Virus record (IMG/VR): IMGVR_UViG_3300044717_000016
Coordinates: 1 to 45,934 of that record
Length of the DNA stretch: 45,934 bases
DNA from: a virus
Reading direction: 5' to 3' (one strand)
Below are positions 18,205-31,888 of the stretch, in pieces. The notes below the pieces were generated by a model. The model was given only the letters and a program-made list of their open reading frames with translations, searched no databases and was not told where the DNA came from. The position numbers were made by a program, and so were the translations under genes. How positions within the stretch are numbered: the stretch's first letter is position 1; every line of letters starts with the position of its first letter.

Positions 18205-18582
18205 TTACTCGCCGGCCGGTGCCGACTCTTCGATCACGTCTATCTCGGCGTCGGGGAACTGGGCGCGCAGTGCCTGCTCGGTTGCGCTCGACACGACGCC
18301 GATGCTGCGACCGTCGTTGTCGAAACCGGAGTCCCTGAACATGCCGCGGAAGTTCCCCACCCGGAGGGCACGAGCATCGACGACGGCCTGCTTGACCACA
18401 GGCTCCTGTCCACCCTCGTCCACAGGCTCCTGTCCACCCTCGTCCACAGGCTCCTGTCCACCCTCGTCCACAGGCTCCTGTCCACCCTCGTCCACAGGCT
18501 CCTGTCCACCCTCGTCCACAGGCTCCTGTCCACCCTCGTCCACAGGCTCCTGTCCACCCTCGTCGTTGGTTTTCTTAGCCAT
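18205..18582 (-). CDS. Repeat-bearing small virion-module protein
   Basis: 125 aa: MAKKTN, then seven exact copies of the octapeptide DEGGQEPV (residues 7-62), then a 63-residue globular part (ALRVGNFRGMFRDSGFDNDG...). The ribosome binding site GGAGA lies ahead of ATG 18582. It occupies the place of decoration or stabilising proteins next to the capsid gene. The acidic repeat should be an unstructured spacer; the C-terminal part has no recognised family. Confidence 0.7.
   Translation of the reverse strand: MAKKTNDEGGQEPVDEGGQEPVDEGGQEPVDEGGQEPVDEGGQEPVDEGGQEPVDEGGQEPVVKQAVVDARALRVGNFRGMFRDSGFDNDGRSIGVVSSATEQALRAQFPDAEIDVIEESAPAGE
18397..18564 (-). repeat. Seven perfect 24-bp tandem repeats
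   Basis: Seven adjacent identical copies of a 24-bp unit (plus strand CACAGGCTCCTGTCCACCCT + CGTC) in phase with the reading frame, encoding DEGGQEPV each time. Identity is complete, including third codon positions, which points to recent expansion by slippage or recombination. Confidence 0.95.
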
Positions 18583-18691: not shown

Positions 18692-20155
18692 TTAGACCGT
18701 CTGCTTCGGCACGCGAATCTTGCGGTGGAACTTCGCGATCTGGAGCATGAGCCCCGACATCTCGAAGGGGACGAACGTGCGCGCGAGCTTCAGGTCGAAG
18801 CCCATCGGCAGTTCGAGGATGGTCGGCGTCGGGCTCCCCAGATAGGGAATCTTGACGCCGGTCGTGTCGAGCACGTCGATGTCTTCGACGACGTTGCCGC
18901 CGAAGGTGTAGTAGCCCATGCCCGAACCCTGCGAGCCGGCCGGGACGGTGACGATCTCGGACAGTTCCTTGCTGCCGAGGCGGATGCCGTTGGCGGAAAG
19001 GTTCGTGTCCACGCCGCCGTCGGGACGCGAGTTGGTGATGCGGTAAAACTCCTCCAACTCCTCGTCGATGACGATCTGGACGCCCTCGCTACAGAAAGCG
19101 ACGATGTTGCGAGCGGAGCCGCCCGCGTTGCGGATCTGCGCCGCGATGCGCCGGAGCGTCCGGCGGTAGGAATCGCCCGCGTCCTTCGTGAGCGACGTGG
19201 AGGCGTCCATCAGGAGCTTGCGCAGGCCGTCGTGGTCGAGGGCGTTATAGAGCCCGTCCTCGTCGTCGAGGGTGCGCGCGGCGGTCGAGCTGTTGCCCTG
19301 AAGGATGAGCGTCTGCTTCTTGCGCGCGATGCCCTTCATGGCCCCCATGACTTCGAGGTTGTCGTTGCCCTGAAGGTTGAAGTTGACCATCCCCGACTGC
19401 TGCACCGCGAGGGCGAGCTTCAGGCCGATGGCGACGGGCGAGACGATGATTGAGATGCGCGTCGACGCGTCGCGCTCGTAGGTCGAGTTGGTGAAGGCAC
19501 CGGAGAAGTCGCCGATGTCGTTGGTAGTGGTGCCGTCGGGGATGGCGGTGCGCACCTCATACGTGTGCACGAGGCCGTTGGCGGGGACGCGCGCGAAGCG
19601 CTCCGCGACGGGGAACTCTCTCAAGTATGCCTCGTAGAGAAACGGCTCGATGTCGGTGCGGATGAGGGGCGCGCCGGAGGTCGTGTCGAGCGCCCGGCGC
19701 ACGACATCGCTGTGGCCGCCGAGATTGCCCTTCGCCGCCGCGCCGAGGAGGCCCGTGCGCACGGCGTCCGAGACGCCTTCAACGTCGTCGCCCGCCTTCT
19801 GCGCGAGCAGCGCCTGAATCATCAATTCCAACTCGACATCGCCCACGACGAAGGTGTCCGTACCGGCGTGCTTCTGTCGTAGGAACCCCTTCGGGTCATC
19901 GAGCGCCTTGTTGGTGTCGAGGTGGCGGAAGGACTTGGAGAGCTTCGCCAGCGACTGGAAGCCCTTCGCGAGTCTGTCACCACCGATGCGCTCCTGCTGC
20001 ACGGCGTCCGTCGCCCCACCGGCGTCCTTGTTGACCGGGGCCGGCTGCCCGTCCGGGTTGGTGGCCGCGGCAGCGGTCTCGCCGCCCGTCAGCCTCTTCG
20101 CGATTGCTTCGAGCCGGTCCAGCGTGGTCGGCTTTTCGATTACTGCGTCTGCCAT
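18692..20155 (-). CDS. Major capsid protein (HK97 fold)
   Basis: 487 aa. The N-terminal 140 residues are charged, Ala/Gly-rich helices resembling a delta domain that the prohead protease would remove; from about residue 165 (GAPLIRTDIEPFLYEAYLRE) the sequence has capsid character: a long spine helix, SPVAIGLKLALAVQQSGMVN, and a C-terminal jelly-like section ending in RTFVPFEMSGLMLQIAKFHR. Located directly downstream of the protease/scaffold gene as in HK97-type phages. The exact cleavage site cannot be told from sequence alone. Confidence 0.8.
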   Translation of the reverse strand: MADAVIEKPTTLDRLEAIAKRLTGGETAAAATNPDGQPAPVNKDAGGATDAVQQERIGGDRLAKGFQSLAKLSKSFRHLDTNKALDDPKGFLRQKHAGTDTFVVGDVELELMIQALLAQKAGDDVEGVSDAVRTGLLGAAAKGNLGGHSDVVRRALDTTSGAPLIRTDIEPFLYEAYLREFPVAERFARVPANGLVHTYEVRTAIPDGTTTNDIGDFSGAFTNSTYERDASTRISIIVSPVAIGLKLALAVQQSGMVNFNLQGNDNLEVMGAMKGIARKKQTLILQGNSSTAARTLDDEDGLYNALDHDGLRKLLMDASTSLTKDAGDSYRRTLRRIAAQIRNAGGSARNIVAFCSEGVQIVIDEELEEFYRITNSRPDGGVDTNLSANGIRLGSKELSEIVTVPAGSQGSGMGYYTFGGNVVEDIDVLDTTGVKIPYLGSPTPTILELPMGFDLKLARTFVPFEMSGLMLQIAKFHRKIRVPKQTV

Positions 20156-20203: not shown

Positions 20204-20935
20204 CTAGCTGACGCTCACGCCCGCGCGCGGAAGAGGCTCTTTGCCGAAGCGTTCGAGCGCCGTCACGGCGGCCAGGCTAATGGCTTTTTCTACCTCAAGA
20301 TTTTCGACCGCCTGCTCACCTACCTTCAGCGCCAGTTCGAGCTGCCCTGCGAGGGCGCTCTTCTCCTCACGGAGTCGGCTGAGGTCGGTTTCGAGAGCGG
20401 CCACCTTCTTCGTGAGGGCGCCGCGGGAGACGACCGACGCCGATTTCTCGACTTCATCGTCCTCACCGTCTTCGCCCTCACCGTCGTCTTCACCGTCGTC
20501 AAACCTTTTGCACTCGACGCCGAGCTCGATGAGGGTGTCGTGCATCTTGTGCAGCAACTGTTGGTCGGCCTCACTGTTGCGCGCGCCGGCCTTCATCAAC
20601 TGCTCGAAGGGCACGCGGTTCAGTGCGTAATAGACCAGGTAAGCCTCGGCCTCCGGATCGCGCAGCATGGCGGCCTTGAGCGCGGCATGGAACTCGCCGA
20701 GCAGCTCGTCGAGCGCCGTCTCGTCCTTCTCCTGATTGCGCCAGTCGTAGAGCGCGGAGATGAGACACGCGAGCAGGAAGCTGACGGTGTTGTTGCGTTC
20801 GTCGACCTCCTCCTGAAAGAGACCCTTGAAGAGGCCCCGCTCGATCCGCTTCTTCTCCACCGCAACCGGGGCCGCGCCCGCTTCCGTCGCGCCGGCTGCC
20901 GTCGGCTCTTCAACGTTCGTCGTCTTTTCGCTCAT
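20204..20935 (-). CDS. Nested scaffold protein (internal start)
   Basis: In-frame ATG at 20935 (Met272 of the protease) is preceded by GGAAGAGAAAGTC, a better ribosome binding site than that of the full-length gene. It would give a 243-aa protein starting MSEKTTNVEEPTAAGATEAG, containing only the helical scaffold region. The layout copies lambda C/Nu3 and similar protease-scaffold pairs. Seen: site and frame; inferred: actual use. Confidence 0.55.
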   Translation of the reverse strand: MSEKTTNVEEPTAAGATEAGAAPVAVEKKRIERGLFKGLFQEEVDERNNTVSFLLACLISALYDWRNQEKDETALDELLGEFHAALKAAMLRDPEAEAYLVYYALNRVPFEQLMKAGARNSEADQQLLHKMHDTLIELGVECKRFDDGEDDGEGEDGEDDEVEKSASVVSRGALTKKVAALETDLSRLREEKSALAGQLELALKVGEQAVENLEVEKAISLAAVTALERFGKEPLPRAGVSVS

Positions 20936-21748
20936 GACTTTCTCTTCCTTTTTCTCTGTGCCGAGCCAAGCCGCCAACTCGTTGCGGAATCGCTCCACCG
21001 ATTGCGGGTCTTTCATATTCAGCGGGCTGAAGGTCGTGTAGAGAGCTTCGACTCCCCCGTCCTTCGTCGCGGCGGACTTACCGGCCGCGGCGTGCGCCCA
21101 CGCGGTCTGGTTGCAGGGGATGCCGACCATCGAGGTCTCGATATAGAAGACGTGGATGATCGTCCGACCGCCGCCCTTGCGCGCGACACTCTTCAAGACG
21201 AGCACGGTCACCGACACGCCCAGCTTTAGCCTGGAGCGCTGGAGCATGTTCGAGACGCGGACGGCGCGCGGGTTCTCTTCCTCGCCGACGGGCGCGATGC
21301 GGAGGTCCCAGCAGGTCAGCCTCTCGTTGTCTCCCGTGACGGGATTGAACAACTCACGGGCGACGATTTCGCAGTCTTCGACCTTGCCGTAGACATCCTC
21401 GGGCAACTCATATTTGTGATTGAGAAAGACCGTGGTGCCCTTGGCCGCCGCCTGCATCTCCTCGATGGCGCTCTCGGCGAAGTCGTCGCCGGAGAGGTCG
21501 ATGGCCGTCGAGGAGGCCGTGACCGGGATTAACTCATCGCCTGATTTTTCGGCGACGGAAAAGGCGGGCACCTCGTGCGAGATGAACTTTTTAACGGGAT
21601 AGCCGAGTGCTTTGAGGACCTTGAAGGCGCTCTTCTTCTGCGACATCGCCTCGCGGAACACGGCCTGCACGTCGAACTGCGACGCGTCGAAATCCTGCGT
21701 CCAACGCGGGATCGGCTGCTGGTCGTCTTGCTGGTCGTGCTCGCTCAT
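20204..21748 (-). CDS. Prohead protease with C-terminal scaffold domain
   Basis: 514 aa. Residues about 40-240 form a serine protease resembling the S78/XkdF-type prohead proteases: TTVFLNHKYELPEDVYGKVE gives a candidate catalytic His111 and LKLGVSVTVLVLKS a candidate Ser179. The rest is charged helix with an acidic patch (DDGEDDGEGEDGEDDEVEK) and a final coiled coil (LTKKVAALETDLSRLREEKS), as expected of a scaffold. It precedes the capsid gene. A second start inside the gene (20935) probably makes the scaffold on its own. Confidence 0.75.
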   Translation of the reverse strand: MSEHDQQDDQQPIPRWTQDFDASQFDVQAVFREAMSQKKSAFKVLKALGYPVKKFISHEVPAFSVAEKSGDELIPVTASSTAIDLSGDDFAESAIEEMQAAAKGTTVFLNHKYELPEDVYGKVEDCEIVARELFNPVTGDNERLTCWDLRIAPVGEEENPRAVRVSNMLQRSRLKLGVSVTVLVLKSVARKGGGRTIIHVFYIETSMVGIPCNQTAWAHAAAGKSAATKDGGVEALYTTFSPLNMKDPQSVERFRNELAAWLGTEKKEEKVMSEKTTNVEEPTAAGATEAGAAPVAVEKKRIERGLFKGLFQEEVDERNNTVSFLLACLISALYDWRNQEKDETALDELLGEFHAALKAAMLRDPEAEAYLVYYALNRVPFEQLMKAGARNSEADQQLLHKMHDTLIELGVECKRFDDGEDDGEGEDGEDDEVEKSASVVSRGALTKKVAALETDLSRLREEKSALAGQLELALKVGEQAVENLEVEKAISLAAVTALERFGKEPLPRAGVSVS

Positions 21749-21835
21749 CAGTCTCAGGTGCGCAGGCGGGAGGCGCTTCTCCGTGATTAAGGCGGTGCGG
21801 AGGGTAGGGTCGCCTCCCCCTGCGCGTGCGGGAGT

Positions 21836-21882
21836 GAGACTAAGGCAAGACTGATTTTTATTTTTCGGAGGGTGTCCGAGTG
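21836..21882 (-). promoter_or_regulatory. Upstream element A (dyad + 23 nt + -10-like box)
   Basis: Plus-strand dyad TCGGA-GGGTG-TCCGA at 21865-21879, and, 23 bases past the end of the CGGAGGGTGTCCG core, TAGTCTC on the minus strand (21842-21836). The same pieces at the same spacing occur at 28982-29028 and 30201-30247. It lies about 90-130 bases before the protease/capsid operon. If TAGTCT is the -10 box, the dyad centre is near -42, a class II activator position. Confidence 0.6.
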
Positions 21883-21921
21883 CGGAAGGGAGCGGGTGGA
21901 AAAGGCTGAGACGGGCGTGTT

Positions 21922-22161
21922 CTAACCGGGACGGCGTTGCTCAGTGTCGGAAATCTTCTGCCGCCAGAAGAGATGCACGAGCAGGCTGCCCACGACGAAG
22001 CCAAGCGCCGCGGCGTGGGTTGCGCCGGCCTGCGCCCACCTCAATGTGACGCGGCTGATGGTTGCGTCGACGCCCCATCGCCAGAAAGCAAAAATGTCAT
22101 AGGCGATGACGAGCGCCGTGTCGGCGGCGATAAATAGTTTGGTGATGAACTGGCCGTTCAT
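21922..22161 (-). CDS. Small two-span membrane protein
   Basis: 79 aa with hydrophobic segments at about residues 8-28 (LFIAADTALVIAYDIFAFW) and 48-66 (AAALGFVVGSLLVHLFW), joined by WGVDATISRVTLRWAQAG. The GVDATISRV...HLFW layout recalls a phage membrane protein family that I have seen near packaging genes but whose role is not known to me. A holin function is possible but not shown. The ribosome binding site is weak. Confidence 0.6.
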   Translation of the reverse strand: MNGQFITKLFIAADTALVIAYDIFAFWRWGVDATISRVTLRWAQAGATHAAALGFVVGSLLVHLFWRQKISDTEQRRPG

Positions 22162-22261
22162 GCTTCTTCAGTCTCTATCGTGACGTAATTGCGCTGGTAA
22201 GCCCTGTAAAGAAGTGGGTCATCTTGAATGCCCGATGTGCCACCTGCCGCAACCATCACTA

Positions 22262-22744
22262 CTATATTGCAGTGATTAGCCGGCAATCGCACTGGCACAC
22301 ACACGGCCGTTCGCACCCTCCATAGGGGCTACACGTGACGCCCTTCCCGGCGCAAACTTTACAGATTGACTTCTTCTTTAAATCCTCGATATGCCATGTC
22401 ACGTGCTTCTGAAATTCCTCATGCGTTGAACTGAAGGTGAGACTGCAAAATCGGCAGGTGCGAGATATGGTTCTTTCCATTGATTGAGGAATACCGACAT
22501 TCTCGCGGGCTCGCAGCGAGAGCACATAGGAGAGCGCCGGATCGTCCCAACCGTCCGACGGCGCTGACGACGTGGCCCACGCATCATGTGCGGCTTGCAC
22601 ATCCGGTGGTAACTTCAGTGGCCAGAGCATCATGCCCATAACGAAATTTATCAGCGCGAGATTGTAAAGTGGGCGTGAGTAAGGAGGTTCAACCTTGGCT
22701 GACCTCATAGCGCCGCTTATCAAGCTGCACGCCATCGATCTCAC
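22262..22744 (-). CDS. C2H2 zinc-finger, Cys-rich protein
   Basis: Up to 160 aa; the start is uncertain (GTG 22744, ATG 22735, or ATG near 22638) because none has a good ribosome binding site. Residues about 95-116, CRFCSLTFSSTHEEFQKHVT then WH, form a near-perfect C2H2 finger (C-x2-C-x13-H-x3-H with the usual aromatic). A second cluster CKVCAGKGVTC...CERPCVCQCDCR follows. Base composition is visibly lower in GC than the neighbours. Probably a nucleic-acid-binding accessory gene inserted between portal and head genes. Confidence 0.5.
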   Translation of the reverse strand: MRSMACSLISGAMRSAKVEPPYSRPLYNLALINFVMGMMLWPLKLPPDVQAAHDAWATSSAPSDGWDDPALSYVLSLRARENVGIPQSMERTISRTCRFCSLTFSSTHEEFQKHVTWHIEDLKKKSICKVCAGKGVTCSPYGGCERPCVCQCDCRLITAI

Positions 22745-22802
22745 CCACGCCCGGGGCGAGTATAACTACTACTCCCGCGTCAATGATAGAGAAGTTGTCC
22801 CT

Positions 22803-24785
22803 TCACTCCTCACTATCGAGCGGGATGACCGTCCTCTTCCCCGACTTGTTGCAGAATGTCACGGCATCAACCTTGACCTTCGTCCCCGACAGGAAATCGT
22901 CGCCCGAATATCCTTCGCCCTTCCCGGACTGCACGTATGCGATGGTCGCGTGCGGCACGTACTCCGGGTGTGTGTCCGTGTGCTCCAGCGCGTCGGCGAT
23001 CTTCTGATTCAATCGCTTCAGCGCCGCGCCCTTCACCTCGACGATGACCACGTCGAACTCCTCGCCCTCGAAGACCGCGGTCTTACCGAGCGTGAGCGTG
23101 AAAGGCTTAACGCCCTTCAGCGCCTCGCGCACGTCGTCGGCGCTGTTCGTCTCCAGCCCGTACTTGATCGTCACGTGCGGCCGAGCCTCGCGCCCGTCAC
23201 CGGCCACCTCGCCGTCGGGGATGCCCTCACCGAAGGCGATGATCTCGTCGGCCACGTCGCCCGGCAGGTCAACCTGTGTCGTCGAGTACTGGTGCGCCGA
23301 CTTCCTGACGACATGCTCGAACGGTAGGCCGGAGCGCAGCATCAGACGGGCTCCGGCTGTGAGCCGCTTACCCGAAGCGGCATCGCCCGCGGTACCACCG
23401 GCGGTATCACCTTCACCCTCAAGCGGAGCCTCCGGTGCGGGTTCCGGCTCCGGCTCTTTCAACTTGCCGCTCTCGTCGAAATATTGCGCGTTCAGTGCCG
23501 AGAGCGGGATGTAGCTGCCCTGTGTCTTCAGCAGTGGCTCGTCGGCGATGGGCAAGTCGAAGGTCGGCTTGCCTGCGTCTCTCGCCGCTTGATTGATTGT
23601 CACCCACGGCACCTGACCGGTCTGCTTCTCACTCACCTCCGACTGTAATTTTTCATCTCTGCGTGACATGATCGGATAGTCGATCATGCAGTTGTGCTCA
23701 CTGACGGGGCCCCACTTGCGCGTCAGGTGCAGATTCTCCATCTCCTTGATGCGCCACAGGAGTGCGCCCGGCCCCTTGTCCGCGTTCTCCAAGAGCGATT
23801 CGGTGTTGGCGCGCGAGGCATCGACCAGCTCGCCCAGCATGGCCAGCGGAAGCTGAAAGATAGCCGCGACCATGCGCTTGAAAAAAAGAAGCTTGTCGAG
23901 CGCCTTTAGGTCGCGCTCGGAGGCGTTGAAGGGGATGAACTTTGAATTCTTCCCGCCCGAAATGACGGCGAAGAAATTCCTGATCTGCTGAATTTCCTGG
24001 CGGAAGGCATCCACCTGTTCTTTGGTGTAGCCCTCGCCGAGGTCGAAGGCGCCGCCCGGCGTGCGGTCGATGAGCTGCTGGAGAAACTGGTCGCTCCCCT
24101 GAAGGAGAGCCCGGATCGAGGTGTCGAGAAGCTCGACGTGCGAGAGGCCGAGCAGGTCGTAAGAGCGCGGGCGGTTGACGAGCGTCATGCACATCTGGTC
24201 CGGCAGCCAGCGCTTGACCTGCCGGTCGAAGGTCAACTCACAGTAGCGCGGCAGACTTGCGTCGGTGCCGTCCCATCCGGGGACAAAGGCGACGCGCTCG
24301 GCGTCCAGCGGGAAGATGCCCCAGGGCGTGGTGTCGCGGTTGATGCCGAGTTCCATCGAGCCGTGGCCGACGACGAGGAAGTCTTCGGTGAACTTGCCCT
24401 TGACGGTGCTGTAGGGCTCGAAGCCGTTCGGGGTCGCGAGGACCGCCTTGATCTCGGCGCGGACGCTCTCATTCATGGGGCGCGTCTGGTCGTAAGGAAC
24501 CACCTGCCACTCGGCCTGCTCGATGCAGTTGCGATAGATGTCGAGCGCGGCGCGCACCGGCTCCGAATGCTCGGCGTACTGGCGCAGCAGCAGCACCCGG
24601 CGCTTGACGAAGAGGCGGGACATGTCGCCCACAGTGCCCCGGAGGACGACGAGCGCGCGGTTGGCCGAGCCGCCGTCGAGACCGCCGCCGAGCATCTGAT
24701 CGTCGAGAGATTTATCGGTCTGCTCCCACTCCCCGAAGCCCGTGAGCGCTTTCGCGCCGCTGATCACCTTGCCAAGTAAGCTCAT
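22803..24785 (-). CDS. Portal protein fused to a 2H phosphoesterase (LigT-like) domain
   Basis: 660 aa, ATGA overlap with the upstream small gene. Residues about 50-420 are a portal: HSEPVRAALDIYRNCIEQAE, FLVVGHGSMELGINRDTTPW, and the helix KEMENLHLTRKWGPVSEHNC. An acidic Pro/Glu/Gly-rich linker (about 445-470) is followed at 496-660 by a separate domain starting HQYSTTQVDLPGDVADEIIA with two H-x-T motifs, HVT at 537-539 and HAT at 612-614, the catalytic signature of 2H phosphoesterases. Such enzymes open cyclic or 2',3'-linked nucleotides; some phage members (Acb1) destroy CBASS signals. Terminase lies just upstream, confirming portal identity. Confidence 0.85.
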   Translation of the reverse strand: MSLLGKVISGAKALTGFGEWEQTDKSLDDQMLGGGLDGGSANRALVVLRGTVGDMSRLFVKRRVLLLRQYAEHSEPVRAALDIYRNCIEQAEWQVVPYDQTRPMNESVRAEIKAVLATPNGFEPYSTVKGKFTEDFLVVGHGSMELGINRDTTPWGIFPLDAERVAFVPGWDGTDASLPRYCELTFDRQVKRWLPDQMCMTLVNRPRSYDLLGLSHVELLDTSIRALLQGSDQFLQQLIDRTPGGAFDLGEGYTKEQVDAFRQEIQQIRNFFAVISGGKNSKFIPFNASERDLKALDKLLFFKRMVAAIFQLPLAMLGELVDASRANTESLLENADKGPGALLWRIKEMENLHLTRKWGPVSEHNCMIDYPIMSRRDEKLQSEVSEKQTGQVPWVTINQAARDAGKPTFDLPIADEPLLKTQGSYIPLSALNAQYFDESGKLKEPEPEPAPEAPLEGEGDTAGGTAGDAASGKRLTAGARLMLRSGLPFEHVVRKSAHQYSTTQVDLPGDVADEIIAFGEGIPDGEVAGDGREARPHVTIKYGLETNSADDVREALKGVKPFTLTLGKTAVFEGEEFDVVIVEVKGAALKRLNQKIADALEHTDTHPEYVPHATIAYVQSGKGEGYSGDDFLSGTKVKVDAVTFCNKSGKRTVIPLDSEE

Positions 24786-25054
24786 AGCCTGAACATCCTT
24801 AAATGCTGCCCCACGATCTGAGAGACGGCACCCGACACCAGCCGCCCGGAACGCTCCGCGCTGAAGCCCCCCATGAAAACCTCGAAGGTCACGCGCTTGA
24901 GCGCCGGAGCCAGTTTACGCAGCTCGTCGCCGCCGCCCAGTTCCGCGACGAACGCGGCGGGCACTTGGCGAACGCCGTCGGCGAATTCAATGGCGACCGG
25001 CGGCTCGACGAGGCCGCCGAGGCTGAAGACGGGAGGACTGTTTTGCTCGCTCAT
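24782..25054 (-). CDS. Small protein between terminase and portal
   Basis: 90 aa, ATGA overlaps on both sides. Starts MSEQNSPPVFSLGGLVEPPV; the central ELGGGDELRKLAPALKRVTF and a C-terminal SGAVSQIVGQHLRMF helix are the only notable parts. No domain recognised. Coupled translation suggests a role in packaging or portal assembly. Confidence 0.65.
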   Translation of the reverse strand: MSEQNSPPVFSLGGLVEPPVAIEFADGVRQVPAAFVAELGGGDELRKLAPALKRVTFEVFMGGFSAERSGRLVSGAVSQIVGQHLRMFRL

Positions 25055-26301
25055 GCCGCGGCTCCCACTAATCGGCCGAGAATTGACGCGGCCGCCGATT
25101 GCTGTGTACCTACCGTCCCGCCGGCGGTCGAGCCGACTGAGATCGCGCCCCCGGTTTCGCCCAGGTGGATCGCATAACTCCCGTACCGCCCGCCGTCCAT
25201 CAGGTGGTCATCGAACTTGATCACCTCGTCCAAGACTTTGCCGTTGCGGTCCGTCTTCCACGAGTATCGTTTGATCTCGCGCAAGAGGTTCGGACTGTTG
25301 GCGTCTACCCGGAGCGGGCACGACTTAATAAAATCAATCGTGTCCTTCACGTCCTTGTACGCCGCCCTGATCTGGAAGCCCGCGCGCGCTATTTCTTCAA
25401 TCGTCTTCGGCTCGGCGCTGTCGGCGATGATCTCCGCGCCGCGTGCCCGCCCTTTCTCCGCGTCATACAGCTCGGGGAGAGTCTTCAATTTCCCGATCAG
25501 GTCGGAGGTCGTGAGCTTCGACTCGTAGAGCATCTCGCGCCAGTAGAGGACGCGGTCGGCGTAGGTCGCTTCGAGGAGCGCCGTCGGATTGTTGTAGCCG
25601 AAATCCAGCCCGTAGACCTTGATGCCGACCTCAGGGATCGTCGTCGTCTCGCGCCAGTGGGTGAAGACGCGTGACGAGCCGCTGCCGGGCTCGCCGAGAC
25701 CGTAAACTTTCCAGTAATCGGCGTCCGCCTCGCGCAACCGCTCAATCTCGGCGACGAGCGACGCCTCAAGGAAGGGGTTGTCGAGGTAGGTCGTGACGAG
25801 CATGTCGCAGTCTTCACGCGTCTCCACGTCGTCGTAGATCCACGAGAAAGCCTCCGACGGGTTGTAGTCGAGGACGATCTTGTCGGTGGTTCTGAAGGCC
25901 AGTTGCCGGAAGGCTTCGAGCTCGCTCTCGTTGGCCTCGTTGAGGAAGAGATAATTACGCTTGCGACCGCGCACGCGCATCGACTCGGAGAGGCCGACGA
26001 ACTCGACCAGGTTGCCGTGCAGGTGATACTCGTTCGAGGTTTTGTTGTGGCACGACTCGTCATAGAGGGTGAGGCGATTGAGGATCTCGAAGAAGTCGCG
26101 CATCGCGGAGGCGCGCAAGGCCGGCATGGTCTGCCGTGCGATGGTGAGGACTTTGCCGTGCTCCTGGAGGAGCCTCGTGACCCAGTAGATGAGGGTGTTG
26201 GTGGTTTTACCCGAGCGGGTGCCGCCGCGCAACGAGGTGATGCGCTTCGTCGAGTCCGTAAGAAACTCGAAGACGACATTACTGCTGATCTCCGCTTCCA
26301 T
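25051..26301 (-). CDS. terL: Terminase large subunit
   Basis: 416 aa, Terminase_3-like. Walker A GGTRSGKT (residues 26-33), Walker B YLFLNE (about 117-122), and a nuclease with candidate metal ligands Asp233 (GLDFGYNNPT), Asp294 (IIADSAEP) and Asp369 (FDDHLMDGGRYG). It cuts concatemers and pumps DNA into the prohead through the portal encoded downstream. Start ATG 26301 overlaps the small subunit gene by 23 bases. Confidence 0.93.
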   Translation of the reverse strand: MEAEISSNVVFEFLTDSTKRITSLRGGTRSGKTTNTLIYWVTRLLQEHGKVLTIARQTMPALRASAMRDFFEILNRLTLYDESCHNKTSNEYHLHGNLVEFVGLSESMRVRGRKRNYLFLNEANESELEAFRQLAFRTTDKIVLDYNPSEAFSWIYDDVETREDCDMLVTTYLDNPFLEASLVAEIERLREADADYWKVYGLGEPGSGSSRVFTHWRETTTIPEVGIKVYGLDFGYNNPTALLEATYADRVLYWREMLYESKLTTSDLIGKLKTLPELYDAEKGRARGAEIIADSAEPKTIEEIARAGFQIRAAYKDVKDTIDFIKSCPLRVDANSPNLLREIKRYSWKTDRNGKVLDEVIKFDDHLMDGGRYGSYAIHLGETGGAISVGSTAGGTVGTQQSAAASILGRLVGAAA

Positions 26302-26620
26302 CTTTCGGTTCGCGCGCCTTCACGATAGTGACCGTGACGGCGGTCGGCACCAGATCCTTCCCGTCTTCACCCGTCACCTCGTGCCGCTCCACGGGCCTCC
26401 CGTAGAGATAGGCCAGCAGGAGCTTGCGCGCCTCCTGGCGCGTCTTGGTCGAGGTCGAGACGGCGTCACTGACGAGTTTTCTGAAGACCTCGTCGAGGTA
26501 ATCTATCTTGCCGTCCTTGCACGCCTTCTTCAGGCGCTTGCGCAGATCGTCCTCGGCCGGCTTAGACTTCCGCCCCGCGCCGTTGCGCGCGCCGCCGTTT
26601 TTTGCTCTCCCGTCTCCCAT
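26279..26620 (-). CDS. terS: Terminase small subunit (probable)
   Basis: 113 aa from ATG 26620. A basic, Gly-rich N-terminus (GRAKNGGARNGAGRKSKPAE) is a common terminase small-subunit start; the middle is helical (LRKRLKKACKDGKIDYLDEV) and the C-terminus forms short beta strands. Directly upstream of terL with overlap. It would bind the pac or cos region and recruit the large subunit. Confidence 0.7.
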   Translation of the reverse strand: MGDGRAKNGGARNGAGRKSKPAEDDLRKRLKKACKDGKIDYLDEVFRKLVSDAVSTSTKTRQEARKLLLAYLYGRPVERHEVTGEDGKDLVPTAVTVTIVKAREPKDGSGDQQ

Positions 26621-26656
26621 CAAACACGCTCTCTCGAAACCCTTATCCGACCAGTC

Positions 26657-26791
26657 CTATTCATCGTCGTCAACCGGATCAACCGGCGCGGCGGATTTGC
26701 ACTGAAGGCACACCATGCGGAGCCCGTCTGTGCCGTCAACCATTCGCACGTCGCGCTTGACGCGCCCGCACTTGTCACACGCTGTCGTCAT
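26657..26791 (-). CDS. Mini zinc-ribbon protein
   Basis: 44 aa: MTTACDKCGRVKRDVRMVDG... ending in an acidic VDPVDDDE. Two CxxC knuckles (CDKC and CLQC) 22 residues apart form a zinc ribbon. A GAGAGG sequence lies 10 bases before ATG 26791. Probably a small nucleic-acid- or protein-binding factor of the packaging operon. Confidence 0.6.
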   Translation of the reverse strand: MTTACDKCGRVKRDVRMVDGTDGLRMVCLQCKSAAPVDPVDDDE

Positions 26792-26809
26792 AACTTCGTT
26801 GCCTCTCCT

Positions 26810-26944
26810 CTAAGCCTTGAGCACTCGCTGCAACACCGGCTCGACGGTGAAGACCCCGATGAGCGGTTGCCCGCACCGGGTACAATCCTGCCGGTACTCG
26901 ACCGTCTCCTCGCCGCAGTGCGGGCATTTATCCGAATAGATCAC
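26810..26944 (-). CDS. Mini zinc-ribbon protein
   Basis: 44 aa from GTG 26944 (GAGG ahead; a GTG three codons earlier is possible). CPHC and CTRC knuckles 13 residues apart (KCPHCGEETVEYRQDCTRCG) make a rubredoxin-like zinc ribbon, followed by a short helix FTVEPVLQRVLKA. It follows the SWIM-type gene by a few bases, and its stop carries the ribosome binding site of the next mini-protein. Confidence 0.6.
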   Translation of the reverse strand: MIYSDKCPHCGEETVEYRQDCTRCGQPLIGVFTVEPVLQRVLKA

Positions 26945-26954
26945 TTCATTCACC

Positions 26955-27251
26955 TCAGCCCGGCGGCGCGACCTCCGCCTCCGCATACCGCTGCATCAGT
27001 CTTGCAGCCGCTCGGTGCCAGCATGGCCATCGGTTTCGATAAGAAGCGCACTGGCAGATCTGGTCGGCGGTGTAGAGGCCGCCCGCCGGGCTGAGGACGA
27101 GGAGCGTTCGCCCATCCCAGTGCATGTAGGGGTTCTCCTCGATCTGCCGGAGAGCTTTGGCGATAGCCACCTCCCAGCGCCTGTCGCCGGAGACTTTGTC
27201 GAACGCCGTCCGCGCCACGTCGCGTATCCTGTCGTGATCAACGCCGTCCAT
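26955..27251 (-). CDS. SWIM-type zinc-finger protein
   Basis: 98 aa from ATG 27251, just after the stop of the preceding gene; an in-frame GTG at 27284 is possible. ADQICQCASYRNRWPCWHRA carries the C-x-C-x(n)-C-x-H arrangement of SWIM fingers, which bind DNA or proteins. The N-terminal half is helical (DRIRDVARTAFDKVSGDRRW). Role in this operon unknown. Confidence 0.7.
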   Translation of the reverse strand: MDGVDHDRIRDVARTAFDKVSGDRRWEVAIAKALRQIEENPYMHWDGRTLLVLSPAGGLYTADQICQCASYRNRWPCWHRAAARLMQRYAEAEVAPPG

Positions 27252-27256
27252 CGCCG

Positions 27257-27877
27257 TCAGGGTATCCTCGCGCCGCACGCGCACGCGGCCGCCGCTTCCA
27301 AAGTCGGGGGTGCGAAGAGGGGTTTCTGCAAAGCCGCCTCAACGAATGCCCTGCTGCGGCCCGCGCAGTTGTCCACGCCGTAACGCACCATCACGCCGAC
27401 GAACTCCTCGACATCGTGTGCCCTCTTCGTGAGCACGGGCCGGTCGAGGTCGTCGAACATCGGATCGCCCTCTCCGTCATGCTTGTGGGCATAGTGGTAG
27501 AGCTCATGCTCGCCGACGGCGCAAGCCCTCCAGTGACTGCACGTCGCCCACGCCGGGGCGTAGAGCCAGATGCGGGCTTGCGGAATGTTGCCGTGCAGCA
27601 TGCAGAGATGATCGGTCTTCTCGGCGCGCGGCCACGGCTTGCCGTTGACGTTGACGATCTCGGCCATCCCGACGATGGGCATGCCGCCGTCCTCGAACTC
27701 CACGTTCGTCCACAGGCAGACGAGGTCGACCTTGCGCATGTGCTCGTGGTCGGGGTTCATGAGCGGCGCGCCGTCGAGCACGAACATCTGCTTCAGCCAC
27801 TCGGCGGCCTCGGGCGCCGGCTCGACGTTGAAGCCGGGCTCGTGCAGGTGCTCAGGTGGAATCGGCTTGTCGTACAT
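27257..27877 (-). CDS. Putative phage zinc metallopeptidase
   Basis: 206 aa from ATG 27877 (MYDKPIPPEH); the longer frame upstream lies over a separate small membrane gene. HELYH at residues 124-128 (CAVGEHELYHYAHK) is an HExxH zinc-binding motif, and conserved pieces FEDGGMPIVGMAEIVN and LCMLHGNIPQARIWLYAPAW match the phage metallopeptidase family that I associate with Pfam PF18894. Possible roles are virion maturation or lysis support; not established for the family. Confidence 0.7.
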   Translation of the reverse strand: MYDKPIPPEHLHEPGFNVEPAPEAAEWLKQMFVLDGAPLMNPDHEHMRKVDLVCLWTNVEFEDGGMPIVGMAEIVNVNGKPWPRAEKTDHLCMLHGNIPQARIWLYAPAWATCSHWRACAVGEHELYHYAHKHDGEGDPMFDDLDRPVLTKRAHDVEEFVGVMVRYGVDNCAGRSRAFVEAALQKPLFAPPTLEAAAACACGARIP

Positions 27878-27891
27878 AGAGTGGCCGGCAG

Positions 27892-28038
27892 TTACGACAC
27901 CCGGCAGATGAACGCGAGCAAGGCGCACAGCGCCGTTAAGGCGATGGCGGTGACGACGGCGGCGGAGAGGAAATATTCCGTATCGTCGGTCGGGGGCTGC
28001 GCCGGGCCGGTCATGTCCGGGAGAGAAGTGATAGACAC
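27892..28038 (-). CDS. Small single-span membrane protein
   Basis: 48 aa, GTG start at 28038 with AAGG at proper distance. After a Pro-rich N-terminus (MTGPAQPPTDDTE) there is one strong membrane segment (YFLSAAVVTAIALTALCALL). With the neighbouring two-span protein and lipoprotein it may be part of a lysis cassette. No family recognised. Confidence 0.55.
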   Translation of the reverse strand: MSITSLPDMTGPAQPPTDDTEYFLSAAVVTAIALTALCALLAFICRVS

Positions 28039-28043
28039 TACAG

Positions 28044-28412
28044 TCACCTTCCGTGCACGTCGCCGAGCCGTGACTGGTATGGGGTGCGGCGGGACGACTT
28101 CCGCTGCCGGAGCAATTTCGACTGGGTTTCGAGTTGGCGGGACTGCTCACGCAGACGGAGCTTCATCGAGTTGTTCACCCACCACATCAGGAGCCTCGAC
28201 CCACTGGTGATGACGGCGACGGCGACCAGACACAGCCCCGAGAAGACGTATGGTCTCGTCACGAACTCGGCCACGTCGGCGGGGGCGATGAACCCGACGA
28301 TTGACCGCACGAACGCGAGGAAGCCGACTATCTGTGCGGCCGTCCACGCCGCGACGTAAGTGCTGACGTAGGCAACGACGGTCAATGTGGTATCACCTTG
28401 AGTATTGTTCAT
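28044..28412 (-). CDS. Membrane protein, holin candidate
   Basis: 122 aa from ATG 28412 (GAGG 8 bases upstream). Two membrane segments, about residues 14-40 (AYVSTYVAAWTAAQIVGFLA) and 54-75 (RPYVFSGLCLVAVAVITSGS), then a basic, Gln-rich helical C-terminus (LREQSRQLETQSKLLRQRKS). Size, topology and charged tail fit a class II holin, and it lies next to a lipoprotein gene. No sequence signature proves it. Confidence 0.55.
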   Translation of the reverse strand: MNNTQGDTTLTVVAYVSTYVAAWTAAQIVGFLAFVRSIVGFIAPADVAEFVTRPYVFSGLCLVAVAVITSGSRLLMWWVNNSMKLRLREQSRQLETQSKLLRQRKSSRRTPYQSRLGDVHGR

Positions 28413-28423
28413 GGCCGACACCT

Positions 28424-28870
28424 CTACGACACGGCAGGCGGCAACGACGCTTCGACGATGCCGAGCAGCTCGCGCGCAAGGCGCAGGTACTTCTCAACTG
28501 CGGCAAACCGCGCGCGCACTTTTTCGGATTTGAAAACGGGGGCACCGCCGGCGTCGAGTCGGTTTTGAGCCTCGGTGACTTCGGAGATGAAGCGGAGGAC
28601 GGCGGCGCGCTTCTGCGCGGGACTCATCGCGCCCCAACCATCGGCAGTGAGCTGTAGCACCCGCGCCGACAAGCCCACTTCGTGTGCCCATTGAGCGACG
28701 CGCGCGCCGTCCGTCTCATTGATCTCGCCGCTCTTGATCGAGGCCGCGACCTCCTGCTCGAAGGCGTCCGCGCCCGCGGAGACCGAACCGGCAACGGCGC
28801 GTACCTTGTTAGGGCCGCACGCGGTCAGCGTGACGAGCATGACGAATACGATTAAGGGTGTCTTTCTCAT
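28424..28870 (-). CDS. Lipoprotein, possible outer spanin-like lysis protein
   Basis: 148 aa from ATG 28870 with a strong AGAGGAGA site. MRKTPLIVFVMLVTLTAC ends in a lipobox (LTAC|G), so the mature protein is anchored by a lipid. The rest is helical (DAFEQEVAASIKSGEINETD, AAVEKYLRLARELLGIVEAS). First gene after upstream element B. In a lysis setting this could be an outer-membrane component; it is longer than Rz1-type spanins, so lysogenic conversion is an alternative. Confidence 0.7.
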   Translation of the reverse strand: MRKTPLIVFVMLVTLTACGPNKVRAVAGSVSAGADAFEQEVAASIKSGEINETDGARVAQWAHEVGLSARVLQLTADGWGAMSPAQKRAAVLRFISEVTEAQNRLDAGGAPVFKSEKVRARFAAVEKYLRLARELLGIVEASLPPAVS

Positions 28871-28981
28871 AATGATTCTCCTCTGGTATGGACGGGGCGC
28901 GGCGCACAGGGCGACCGGGGCGCAATTCGCGTTAGTTCGTCGCCGCGCGTTGAGTGCGGAGCGCGCGCCCGTCACAAGCGG

Positions 28982-29028
28982 GAGACTAGAACAAAGGGGT
29001 GATTTATTTGTCGGAGGGTGTCCGAGCG
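28982..29028 (-). promoter_or_regulatory. Upstream element B (dyad + 23 nt + -10-like box)
   Basis: Dyad TCGGA-GGGTG-TCCGA at 29011-29025 (plus strand) and TAGTCTC on the minus strand at 28988-28982, with the same 23-nt distance as elements A and C. It follows the terminator at 29047-29091 and precedes the lipoprotein gene by about 110-160 bases, so it is well placed to start the lysis/packaging operon. Confidence 0.6.
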
Positions 29029-29046
29029 TGGGGTGAGGATAGGGCG

Positions 29047-29091
29047 GAAAAGAAACGGCAGGGGCAGGCACCTCTAATGCCTGCCCCTGCC
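29047..29091 (-). terminator. Intrinsic terminator of the regulator/nuclease unit
   Basis: Perfect 14-bp stem GGCAGGGGCAGGCA / TGCCTGCCCCTGCC with a 7-nt loop (29057-29091). On the minus strand the stem is followed by GTTTCTTTTCC, a T-rich tract, so it terminates leftward transcription coming from the 29163-29651 gene. Confidence 0.8.
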
Positions 29092-29162
29092 AAGGCCGCG
29101 ACAATAACTTTAAGAACTCGATTGCCGGCGGTAAAACTTCACGAACGGGCGCGCTCTGCGAG

Positions 29163-29651
29163 TTACGGCATATGCCGACGGGTCAGCCCGTAGTAAATAA
29201 TCGTGCCGCCGCGCCCGCACTTTTGCTTTCCGTGCCCCGTGGTGAGTTCGACGAGTTCGGTTTCGGGGCTTGAAAAATCGTCGAGAATCTCCTTCACCAA
29301 TTCTTCCGACAGTCTCGTCATCTCGACGATCTCGGCGAGCGTGAGGCGGGCGCTCTGCTCCAGCGCCTTCAGCACCGCCAGCCTTTGCCTGTGCTCGTCG
29401 CGGGTGTAGCGAAGGCGGATCGAGTTGATGACCTGACGGAGTTCAAGCCGCGTCTGCTCGTCCGGCGCTTTGTCGCACAGTATCTGAAGTTGTTGGGCGT
29501 AATTGATCGCCTGGAGTTGCTCCTCATCGGTGGCGCGCTGTTGCCTGCGGCGGATGGAGCGTGTGCGGTCTGAAGGATATTTCGGGCGTGATGCGCGCGG
29601 AGCGGGCGGCGGGGCGAGTTGAGCGTCGGGTAAGCGGGGGGAAGTATTCAT
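29163..29651 (-). CDS. Winged-helix DNA-binding regulator candidate
   Basis: 162 aa. Basic, Pro-rich N-terminus (APPPAPRASRPKYPSDRTRS), a helical region, then a winged-helix-like domain (about residues 88-160): RLAVLKALEQSARLTLAEIV, EMTRLSEELVKEILDDF, and a wing with LVELTTGHGKQKCGRGGTII. Last gene before the terminator, and its unit starts behind element C. It is the best candidate in the window for the regulator acting at elements A-C, but nothing in the sequence proves this. Confidence 0.65.
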   Translation of the reverse strand: MNTSPRLPDAQLAPPPAPRASRPKYPSDRTRSIRRRQQRATDEEQLQAINYAQQLQILCDKAPDEQTRLELRQVINSIRLRYTRDEHRQRLAVLKALEQSARLTLAEIVEMTRLSEELVKEILDDFSSPETELVELTTGHGKQKCGRGGTIIYYGLTRRHMP

Positions 29652-29693
29652 AAAGATAATTCCGGTCCGTTATTCAATAATGAAAGGTTGCGG

Positions 29694-30194
29694 CTAAAGA
29701 ACAGTGCCGGCCGCGGCGGAAGTTCTGACCCTCAGGGTATGGAGCCTGATCAGGTACGCCTCGAAAGCCCGGCGCTCAATCAGCGCCAACTGGTGCCTGA
29801 TCTCCAACTCCACGTCGACGACTCCCTGCTCTCCCTCCGCCCTCGTCACGAGCCAACCCGCCAGCTCCAACTCCGCCAGCTTCTTCTCCTGCGCCTCGCG
29901 ATACTCGCCGCCGGCCTTCTTGACCTCGATGGCCCACGCGCGCCCGGTGACGGGGATGCTCGCCGTGATGTCGGGCCAGCCTGCGGGGTAGACGAGTTGG
30001 CGCTTGCCCTTGGGCGTATCCACCGTCATCGCGTCGGTGACGGCGGCCTGAAAGTTGGAGTTGAGCAGAAGGGAGAGGATGCGCGAGCGAAGTTTGGACT
30101 CAGCGGTGGTGTCCTTCCCGAGCGTCGTGGGGACGGGCTTCGTCCTCCGCCCGTCTTCGGGAAATAATCCGCCCTCTAAAGCGCGCCTCCTCAT
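29694..30194 (-). CDS. VRR-NUC-type nuclease
   Basis: 166 aa from ATG 30194. The core GWPDITASIPVTGRAWAIEV then KKAGGEYREAQEKKLAELEL carries the G-x-PD ... (I/V)E-x-K ... Q motifs of VRR-NUC (PD-D/EXK) nucleases, often used by phages as Holliday junction or branch-cutting enzymes. If the -10-like box of element C is real, transcription starts at or next to the ATG, making the mRNA leaderless. Likely in recombination, replication or packaging preparation. Confidence 0.8.
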   Translation of the reverse strand: MRRRALEGGLFPEDGRRTKPVPTTLGKDTTAESKLRSRILSLLLNSNFQAAVTDAMTVDTPKGKRQLVYPAGWPDITASIPVTGRAWAIEVKKAGGEYREAQEKKLAELELAGWLVTRAEGEQGVVDVELEIRHQLALIERRAFEAYLIRLHTLRVRTSAAAGTVL

Positions 30195-30200
30195 CGTCCA

Positions 30201-30247
30201 GTGTATACACCGGGGCGGCGCGTTATTTTGCGGAGGGTGTCCGAGTG
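30201..30247 (-). promoter_or_regulatory. Upstream element C (dyad + 23 nt + -10-like box)
   Basis: CGGAGGGTGTCCGAGTG at 30231-30247 (plus strand; outer dyad pair broken, G instead of T) and TATACAC on the minus strand at 30207-30201, again 23 nt apart. It lies between the 84-aa gene and the nuclease gene it would control. Confidence 0.55.
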
Positions 30248-30256
30248 AGGGCCGGA

Positions 30257-30511
30257 TCAGAGGGCTGCCGGGGCGTTTGCCTCTGCGTCCCGGTCGTCAT
30301 CGTGCCAGTCGTATTCGAGCAGCTCCCTGAGGCTGAAGGCGAGCTGCGCCCGGTTGAGTGCGCGGTGCGTCCGCGCTTCGCTTCTCGCGGCGCGGTGCAT
30401 CTCCGCTCGCTCCCTCAGCAGCCTGGCCGCTTCGTCGAGGTGAAAGATTATTCGCAGGCGTTCAGGCGTCCTCGCGTATGGCGTTGGCTTTTCCCCTGTG
30501 AGTGGTGGCAT
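30257..30511 (-). CDS. Small helical protein
   Basis: 84 aa with AGGAG before ATG 30511. Entirely helical and charged (RLRIIFHLDEAARLLRERAE, then RALNRAQLAFSLRELLEYDW), no cysteines, acidic C-terminus. It has its own promoter and a dyad in the leader (30531-30580), which suggests regulated expression. Family not recognised. Confidence 0.65.
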   Translation of the reverse strand: MPPLTGEKPTPYARTPERLRIIFHLDEAARLLRERAEMHRAARSEARTHRALNRAQLAFSLRELLEYDWHDDDRDAEANAPAAL

Positions 30512-30655: not shown

Positions 30656-31888
30656 TCAATTCGCCTTCAGCTTTTCGTGTCGGCACCGCGCCGCTCCTTT
30701 ATCGTATCCCTCCGGGTACCACATCCCAGTGCCGAAGCAGTCCGGGCATTGCGTCGCGCTGGCGATGCGTGCCGCCGGCGTCTGCTGCCCCTGTGACGCG
30801 GTTTCGGCGTCGAGCTGGCGCTTCTCCTTCTTCCACAACCGGCGACGCAGATGCTCGGCGAGAAACGCAGGCGCGCTGGAGACTGTCGTGCGACCGGCGG
30901 CAATTTTCAGCTCCGTGACGAGCAGTTCCGCTACTTCCGCCCAGCGCTCGCCCTCAGCCGCGGTGGTTCTCTTCCCCGTCACCTCGATTGTTGCCCGGTG
31001 CAGCCGAGAAACTAGTTCGGCGAAAGCCTCATCATCAGTTTTTTGCTCAATAGTCTTAAAAGAAGTCTTAGGCTCGCCGGAAGTGTTTACGTCGCTTGAA
31101 GATAAGGTACTACCGGTACTACCACTTTCCGGTATTACCGGTAGTACCGAATTTCGGGTAATCTCGGTACTACCGATTCGATTGGTAGTACTGGTTAAAT
31201 CGGATAGACCGAAAACGCCCGCTGCTACCTCCTCGGGGGTGAACACCTCATATTCGTTTCCGCTATTTTCCCCAACGATTGTCTTGACGGAAACCAGCCC
31301 GACGGTTTGGAGATGCGCCAGCGCGGCGTCCACTGTGCCCATCGATCCGAACCCTGCCGCGGCCTTGATCTGAGGGCGGGAGCGACGCACGGTGCGAGAG
31401 GGAACGACGGCACCGCGCGACTGGCTCCAGAGATAGTCCCACACGTGCTTGCTCTTGCCCTTGAAGAGTCGCTCCGCCATCGCGGCGCGCGTGATTGAAT
31501 TCGGCACCTTTTGAAAATCACGTTCGGGGGATACTGCGGACACTTCCCTGACGACCCCGGCCTGCTTGGTACTATCATCTTTGCCGGTACTACCAGTTCG
31601 CTTAGTAGTACCTACTTTCCGGCTACTACCGGCTTTACCGGTAATACCTAAAACATCGGTACTACCAGTCTCGGCGGTAGTACCGGCATGTTCGGTACTA
31701 CCACTTTTATCGGTAGTACCGCTGGCTTCGATATGTGCTCCGTCATCGGGAAGGGAGCCGCCGTAGATGATCTCCTCAATCGGGTGACGCTCGGTCGGGA
31801 GTTTGACGCGGTCGAACATCCCCGCGCCTGAGAGCCTTCCCGGTGTCCGCGTCTTGATGGGTTCCTTTTTCTCTTTAGGATCAGTCAC
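30656..31888 (-). CDS. Winged-helix replication initiator candidate with internal iterons
   Basis: 410 aa, GTG start at 31888 in a GTGA overlap with parA. Residues about 57-107 are a 6-residue repeat G(S/T)Txxx, the translation of 18-bp iterons. Residues about 120-225 are a winged-helix domain (KVPNSITRAAMAERLFKGKS, SRPQIKAAAGFGSMGTVDAA, LAHLQTVGLVSVKTI). Residues about 232-261 come from a second iteron cluster. The C-terminal part has a helical region and a C-x2-C...C-x-H-like end (CPDCFGTG...CRHEK). The overall plan, DNA-binding protein with origin repeats inside its own gene, copies lambda O. A centromere-binding partner of ParA is the main alternative. Confidence 0.65.
   Translation of the reverse strand: MTDPKEKKEPIKTRTPGRLSGAGMFDRVKLPTERHPIEEIIYGGSLPDDGAHIEASGTTDKSGSTEHAGTTAETGSTDVLGITGKAGSSRKVGTTKRTGSTGKDDSTKQAGVVREVSAVSPERDFQKVPNSITRAAMAERLFKGKSKHVWDYLWSQSRGAVVPSRTVRRSRPQIKAAAGFGSMGTVDAALAHLQTVGLVSVKTIVGENSGNEYEVFTPEEVAAGVFGLSDLTSTTNRIGSTEITRNSVLPVIPESGSTGSTLSSSDVNTSGEPKTSFKTIEQKTDDEAFAELVSRLHRATIEVTGKRTTAAEGERWAEVAELLVTELKIAAGRTTVSSAPAFLAEHLRRRLWKKEKRQLDAETASQGQQTPAARIASATQCPDCFGTGMWYPEGYDKGAARCRHEKLKAN
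31106..31192. repeat. Iteron cluster 2 (GGTASTACC motifs)
   Basis: Copies or near-copies of the 9-bp dyad GGTA(C/G)TACC at 31106, 31115, 31131, 31140, 31157 (degenerate), 31166 and 31184. Spacings are 9, 16, 9, 17, 9 and 18 bp. Directly to the left (31031-31070) is an A/T-rich stretch, 29 of 40 bases by my count, in an otherwise GC-rich gene: a candidate unwinding element. Confidence 0.8.
31568..31720. repeat. Iteron cluster 1: nine motifs at an 18-bp period
   Basis: Nine copies of GGTASTACC or close variants start at 31568, 31586, 31604, 31622, 31640, 31658, 31676, 31694 and 31712, that is, exactly every 18 bp. C- and G-centre versions alternate in part, so sites face alternately. The half between cores is variable, so selection is on the 9-bp core. 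Not noticed elsewhere in the window. Confidence 0.9.

Follow-up and report, generated by a model that had tools for sequence, protein, structure and literature searches.

In phage Mu, the Mor protein acts at the middle promoter Pm, where its 16-bp site, centred at -43.5, replaces the -35 element (PMC4390567). The late promoters of P2 Ogr and P4 delta share the consensus TGT-N12-ACA (PMC3931495). The staphylococcal proteins Ltr and RinA are small, mostly basic and coded directly upstream of the packaging or late promoter that they control (PMC13123087), while the T4 middle promoters of MotA combine a -10 with a phage activator box in place of the -35 (PMC6755090).

The locus described here lies in the virus record IMGVR_UViG_3300044717_000016, whose 45,934 bases were analysed in full and are called the window. 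Its control logic appears to work like that of these four systems, by analogy and with no membership of their protein families implied. As for Mor, the candidate activator is a small phage-coded protein, and a recognisable -10 occurs with no -35. However, Mor serves a single middle promoter by binding a dyad, whereas here three to eight promoters share an element made of a C-rich and an A-rich block, and the dyad is not conserved. As for Ogr, an element is common to several late operons of the same phage and the candidate activator is phage-coded, but Ogr is a CX2CX22CX4C zinc protein, while the winged-helix protein of the window has no such cysteine pattern, and the Ogr sites are TGT-N12-ACA, while the window element is CTCGGACACCCTCCG. 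The position of the window protein upstream of a late promoter resembles that of Ltr and RinA; these serve one late promoter with direct repeats, whereas here three units have separate promoters and the winged helix is without a family match. For MotA, the box has its centre near -30 and AsiA is required; nothing AsiA-like was seen here.

The exact 15-mer CTCGGACACCCTCCG occurs three times in the window, on the minus strand only, and each copy lies within a gap ahead of a leftward unit, in agreement with the preliminary description. Other details of that description are also reproduced. The distance from CTCGGACACCCTCCG to the box TAGTCTC, TAGTCTC or TATACAC is exactly 23 nt in all three copies, the A-rich AAATAA follows directly in 3/3, and copy 2 comes right after a strong terminator, a 17-bp hairpin with a T-run. 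A sigma-70 consensus scan at the three sites returned no promoter and no -35-like hexamer, as expected from the claim that a consensus -35 is lacking. The elements are as follows.

21866-21880, minus strand: C-rich block of copy 1 (putative capsid operon promoter), CTCGGACACCCTCCG; exact copy, also supported by its matrix rank
21858-21865, minus strand: A-rich block of copy 1, AAAAATAA, at the would-be -35; an A-rich block recurs in four phages
21836-21842, minus strand: putative -10 box TAGTCTC of copy 1; identical at the same gene in the relatives G011 and G013
29012-29026, minus strand: C-rich block of copy 2 (putative lysis/packaging promoter); exact copy
29004-29011, minus strand: A-rich block of copy 2, ACAAATAA; from sequence
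28982-28988, minus strand: putative -10 box TAGTCTC of copy 2; unchanged in G011 and G013, TAGTCTT in the relative G014
30231-30245, minus strand: C-rich block of copy 3 (putative nuclease/regulator promoter); exact copy
30223-30230, minus strand: A-rich block of copy 3, CAAAATAA; from sequence
30201-30207, minus strand: putative -10 box TATACAC of copy 3; 13 nt to the nuclease start codon, as in G011
29056-29092, minus strand: intrinsic terminator between the winged-helix gene and copy 2; hairpin and T-run

The triple repeat by itself is insufficient as evidence. The nearest other sites in the window differ from CTCGGACACCCTCCG by three mismatches, and matches with up to three mismatches are not commoner than in shuffled sequences, so the signal is confined to the exact copies. 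A triple 13-mer was present in 9 of 100 first-order Markov genomes of the window's composition, i.e., it is alone not very rare, and recurrence in relatives was therefore sought. It is the location in gaps, the fixed spacing and this recurrence that rule out a chance origin.

Two relatives, G011 (IMGVR_UViG_3300034026_000014) and G013 (IMGVR_UViG_3300034137_000038), were found via the portal protein; their head proteins are 40-73% identical to those of the window, with partial synteny. A third, G014 (IMGVR_UViG_3300034402_000016), was found via an alignment of the nuclease. All four phages share three gaps: before the VRR-NUC nuclease, from the winged-helix gene to the lysis/packaging block, and before the scaffold/capsid genes. 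In G011 the gaps contain CRCCCCCTCACGGAATCAA followed by TAGTCTC, TAGTCTC and TATACAA, at three sites only, and the block was not found elsewhere in the 59 kb with up to four mismatches. In G013 they contain ACTCACACCCCCCAAAAATTAA or variants of it, followed by TAGTCTC, TAGTCTC and TATAAGC. The TA box is thus gene-specific in the window, G011 and G013, with TAGTCTC before the lysis and capsid units and a TATA-type box before the nuclease, unlike the upstream block, which is phage-specific.

An exact-pattern scan of viral contigs for TCGGACACCCTCCGNNAAATAA found none because the element differs in each phage. The search of the genome and its relatives that had been proposed is answered in two ways: the exact motif is present three times in the window, but the relatives hold their own versions and the exact pattern was not found in them. 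The motif is not placed at random inside their genes, as the same three gaps are occupied in G011, G013 and G014. The central proposal of the preliminary description, that the nuclease/regulator, lysis/packaging and head units have a common family of promoters, is supported by sites at the same three places in four phages, and on comparative grounds we regard this three-site family as close to certain. In G012, a shorter relative, TAGTTTC is found ahead of the capsid gene but no matching upstream block, so either some members of the group lack this promoter system or it has changed past recognition in G012. Terminase relatives were discarded as a further test, since only the terminase is common and the absence of the motif there is uninformative.

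The number of element copies is three in the window, three in G011, eight in G013 and three in G014. The five extra copies of G013 form a tandem array with a period of about 60 bp, flanked by an antisense reading frame and the tape-measure gene, and their boxes read TACCCT, TATGCT, a TATAAT-like sequence, TATGCT and TAGTCT. It is possible that this array repaired an operon broken by cargo. In reverse-complement coordinates the array lies at 48520-48840 (L058-L060), after an antisense small gene.

The conservation of the element was assessed with a leave-one-phage-out matrix. Orthologous sites share ancestry, so the ranks measure conservation against background and not independent origins. With a matrix trained without the window, the three window sites take ranks 1, 2 and 3 of the 91,776 positions ranked. 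Trained without G011, the matrix places the two late G011 sites at ranks 1 and 2, and trained without G013 it places three G013 sites at ranks 1-3; rank 1 goes to an array site, for which the training set contains no orthologue. Lower ranks, 19-170, are taken by the G011 and G013 nuclease copies and by four of the five array copies, since in a rigid matrix their spacing is off by 1 nt or their box is different, and these sites are recognised by the upstream block instead.

The strongest evidence is the result for G014, where the head module has been exchanged while the promoters have stayed in place. This phage has a portal (PHROG 3e-102), a scaffold (1e-38) and a major head protein (6e-106) of families other than those of the window. 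Nevertheless, GCGGAGCCACCCCTCC(A/G)AAAATTAA occurs exactly three times in this phage, each 24 nt from a box: before the nuclease (TATAAA), from the winged-helix gene to the lipoprotein (TAGTCT) and before the scaffold (TAATCT). In a blind test of the matrix from the other phages, these sites rank 1, 2 and 3 with scores of 37.7, 27.2 and 25.4; the next position scores 11.7, and column-permuted matrices reach 16.0 at most.

The window genes belonging to the three units are listed here with the leader hairpin of the copy-1 unit.

29694-30194, minus strand: VRR-NUC-like nuclease, first gene of the copy-3 operon; PF08774 E 1.2e-4, PHROG Holliday-junction resolvase/endonuclease E 1.5e-6, 48-52% identical to the G011, G013 and G014 counterparts
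29163-29651, minus strand: winged-helix protein, candidate activator; syntenic homologues in G011, G013 and G014, winged helix at residues 84-162
28424-28870, minus strand: putative lipoprotein, first gene after copy 2; G014 homologue, E 1e-8
25051-26301, minus strand: terminase large subunit, copy-2 unit; family match
22803-24785, minus strand: portal protein with fused 2'-5' RNA ligase-like C-terminus, copy-2 unit; family match
20204-21748, minus strand: 514-aa protein, first gene of the copy-1 unit, in the protease/scaffold position; 41-53% identical in G011, G012 and G013, no family match in Pfam/PHROG profile searches
18692-20155, minus strand: probable major capsid protein, from position and conservation; no Pfam/PHROG family match
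21760-21825, minus strand: strong hairpin within the 5' leader of the copy-1 transcript; z -3.2 in the window and -4.1 in G011

Over 17 sites the shared architecture is CACCCYC, then a sequence like AAAAATTAA, then TANNNT in most. If the box is taken as the -10, the blocks span about -50 to -26, with the C-rich CACCCYC block at about -50 to -36 and the A-rich block at about -35 to -26, where a -35 is expected. Judged by sequence only, a -10 is present, the -35 is absent and the element is at the class II position. The dyad does not survive as the recognised feature proposed earlier, as CGGA-N5-TCCG is peculiar to the window and was not found in G011 or G013. The reading of the TA box as the -10, in contrast, fits well with the nuclease gene. 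Its start codon follows the first T of the box by 13 nt in the window and G011 and by 14-15 nt in G014 and G013, i.e., it coincides with the predicted +1 in two phages and is within 1-2 nt of it in the others, which argues that the box is a -10 and that the nuclease mRNA is probably leaderless. A purine stands 8 nt after the box in 10 of the 12 sites outside the array.

TAGTCTC was also considered as the arm of an RNA stem. It can pair with GAGAC before the ATG in the capsid leaders of the window and G011. In the lysis leaders, however, it finds no such partner, and the nuclease gene has TATA boxes in its place; for the last two reasons the -10 is the better reading. The leaders have some structure of their own. 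The hairpin at 21760-21825 (minus) immediately precedes the start codon of the capsid unit, which is without a clear Shine-Dalgarno; its sequence is kept in G011, and hairpins of different sequence are found in G013 and G012. The lysis leaders (28871-28975, minus, in the window, and those of G011, G013 and G014) have long closing stems and a short TCGCCCTGTGYGCC-like stretch in common. Folded jointly, these four leaders give a weak consensus, and an Rfam search gave nothing convincing.

The winged-helix gene is the second in the copy-3 operon, after the nuclease, and homologues are found at the same place in all four phages. By BLASTP, the window protein matches that of G013 at E 2e-7, the G011-G013 pair has 6e-6 and the G013-G014 pair 2e-14. 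The window-G014 pair is not seen by BLASTP, but is aligned and syntenic nonetheless. No significant Pfam or PHROG family (PHROG E <= 0.001) was found for the window protein, and these profile searches showed no sequence link to Mor. The predicted structure has a mean pLDDT of 69, with the N-terminal half at low confidence, and residues 84-162 match winged helices (archaeal TFE, MarR) with Z 8-9.5 over 61-76 residues.

Among the phages, the similarity of this protein ranks exactly as the similarity of the element (rho 1.0, from six non-independent pairs of four phages), while rho is 0.6 for the nuclease. For example, G011 has the capsid closest to that of the window (73%), yet it is the most diverged phage in both the winged-helix protein and the element. 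This is suggestive of a protein that diverges in step with its element. From the sequence comparison and the structure model, the protein at 29163-29651 is the best candidate for the activator; the earlier proposal of this role gains indirect support from the synteny in four phages, the winged-helix fold and the divergence matching that of the element. A conserved position in all four phages is likewise seen for the small protein at 30257-30511.

We suggest, with a probability of about 0.64, that the three sites form one late regulon in which the host polymerase is recruited without a -35 by the winged-helix activator via the upstream element. Host RNA polymerase with the main sigma factor would read TANNNT as the -10, and a protein bound to the C-rich/A-rich element would recruit it by contact, like class II phage activators; the best candidate for that protein is the phage's own winged-helix protein. 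The -10 of copy 3 (TATAca) is the nearest to consensus of the three boxes, so basal transcription of the leaderless nuclease mRNA from copy 3 could start a positive loop. The activator would then raise copy 3 and turn on copies 2 (lysis/packaging) and 1 (head/tail), where the TAGTCT boxes are poor by themselves. We infer the transcription starts, the binding, the activation and the loop from a comparison that covers four phages.

The span of the element, -50 to -26, is one where a repressor could act too. The element could thus be an operator, through which the winged-helix or another protein represses the late promoters in a plasmid-prophage state, with firing once it is gone. The phage-plasmid look of the window (ParA, integrases) calls for silencing of the late genes, the -35 region is overlapped by the element, and neighbours of the winged-helix fold are often repressors (MarR). 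However, the promoters would still be without a -35 when no repressor is bound, the poor -10 TAGTCT, unchanged in three phages, suits activator dependence, and the candidate gene is inside the regulon and not in an immunity region. We consider repression unlikely. That the regulon is activated by something else, either a host regulator or the small protein coded just upstream (30257-30511), is rather improbable. Relatives of the small protein occupy the matching position in each of the four phages, and those of G011 and G014 carry a CxxC...CxxC stretch like that of zinc-binding activators, but the proteins of the window and G013 are without this stretch and show no sign of a DNA-binding domain. 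With a host regulator, the differences of the element among the phages would be left unexplained, unless the hosts differ.

The nearly fixed spacing of blocks and box would also suit an alternative sigma factor, of host or phage, for which the C-rich/A-rich block would serve as the -35 and the TA box as the -10. The 23-24 nt from the end of the C-rich block to the box are too many for a sigma -35, and no sigma or polymerase domain was found in the window proteins scanned. Further, the upstream block varies between phages while the -10 does not, and at the key positions for the main sigma the box has retained T, A and mostly T. This is the least probable of the alternatives.

Returning to activation by the winged-helix protein, a wider evolutionary scenario can be speculated, to which we give somewhat less than even odds. 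A self-contained late-control cassette, consisting of the leaderless nuclease, a fast-diverging winged-helix activator and matching promoters, would have kept its three positions through the exchange of the head module for an unrelated one, with the element re-tuned in each phage and a five-fold array added where cargo broke the tail operon. The activator/element pairs could form a natural series in which to follow shifts in the DNA specificity of activators that act in place of a -35. The promoters would also provide a readable code of late-gene control, with a likely master regulator named, for uncultivated phage-plasmid-like viruses without isolated relatives, and late operons and cargo genes could be delimited in such contigs from the DNA alone.

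The early side of the window codes for ParA, integrases and a HerA-like ATPase, which suggests that the virus is a phage-plasmid. No related portal or capsid was found in genome contigs and no capsid match in the phages collection; a plasmid search gave one weak portal match, and ParA is too widespread to point to a host. The terminase (25051-26301) is 74% identical to that of G001, an otherwise unrelated contig of 45% GC, and the closest relative, G011, has a different one, which indicates a terminase exchange. The C-terminus of the portal (22803-24785) is a 2'-5' RNA ligase/LigT-like domain, weakly similar to the anti-CBASS protein Acb1; G011 and G012 have retained this C-terminus. At 18396-18564, seven perfect 24-bp tandem repeats encode in-frame DEGGQEPV repeats of the minus-strand ORF 18205-18582. 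Finally, 31106-31721 contains repeats with GGTAGTACCGG-type inverted repeats inside the gene 30656-31888, which is possibly a replication initiator with iterons.
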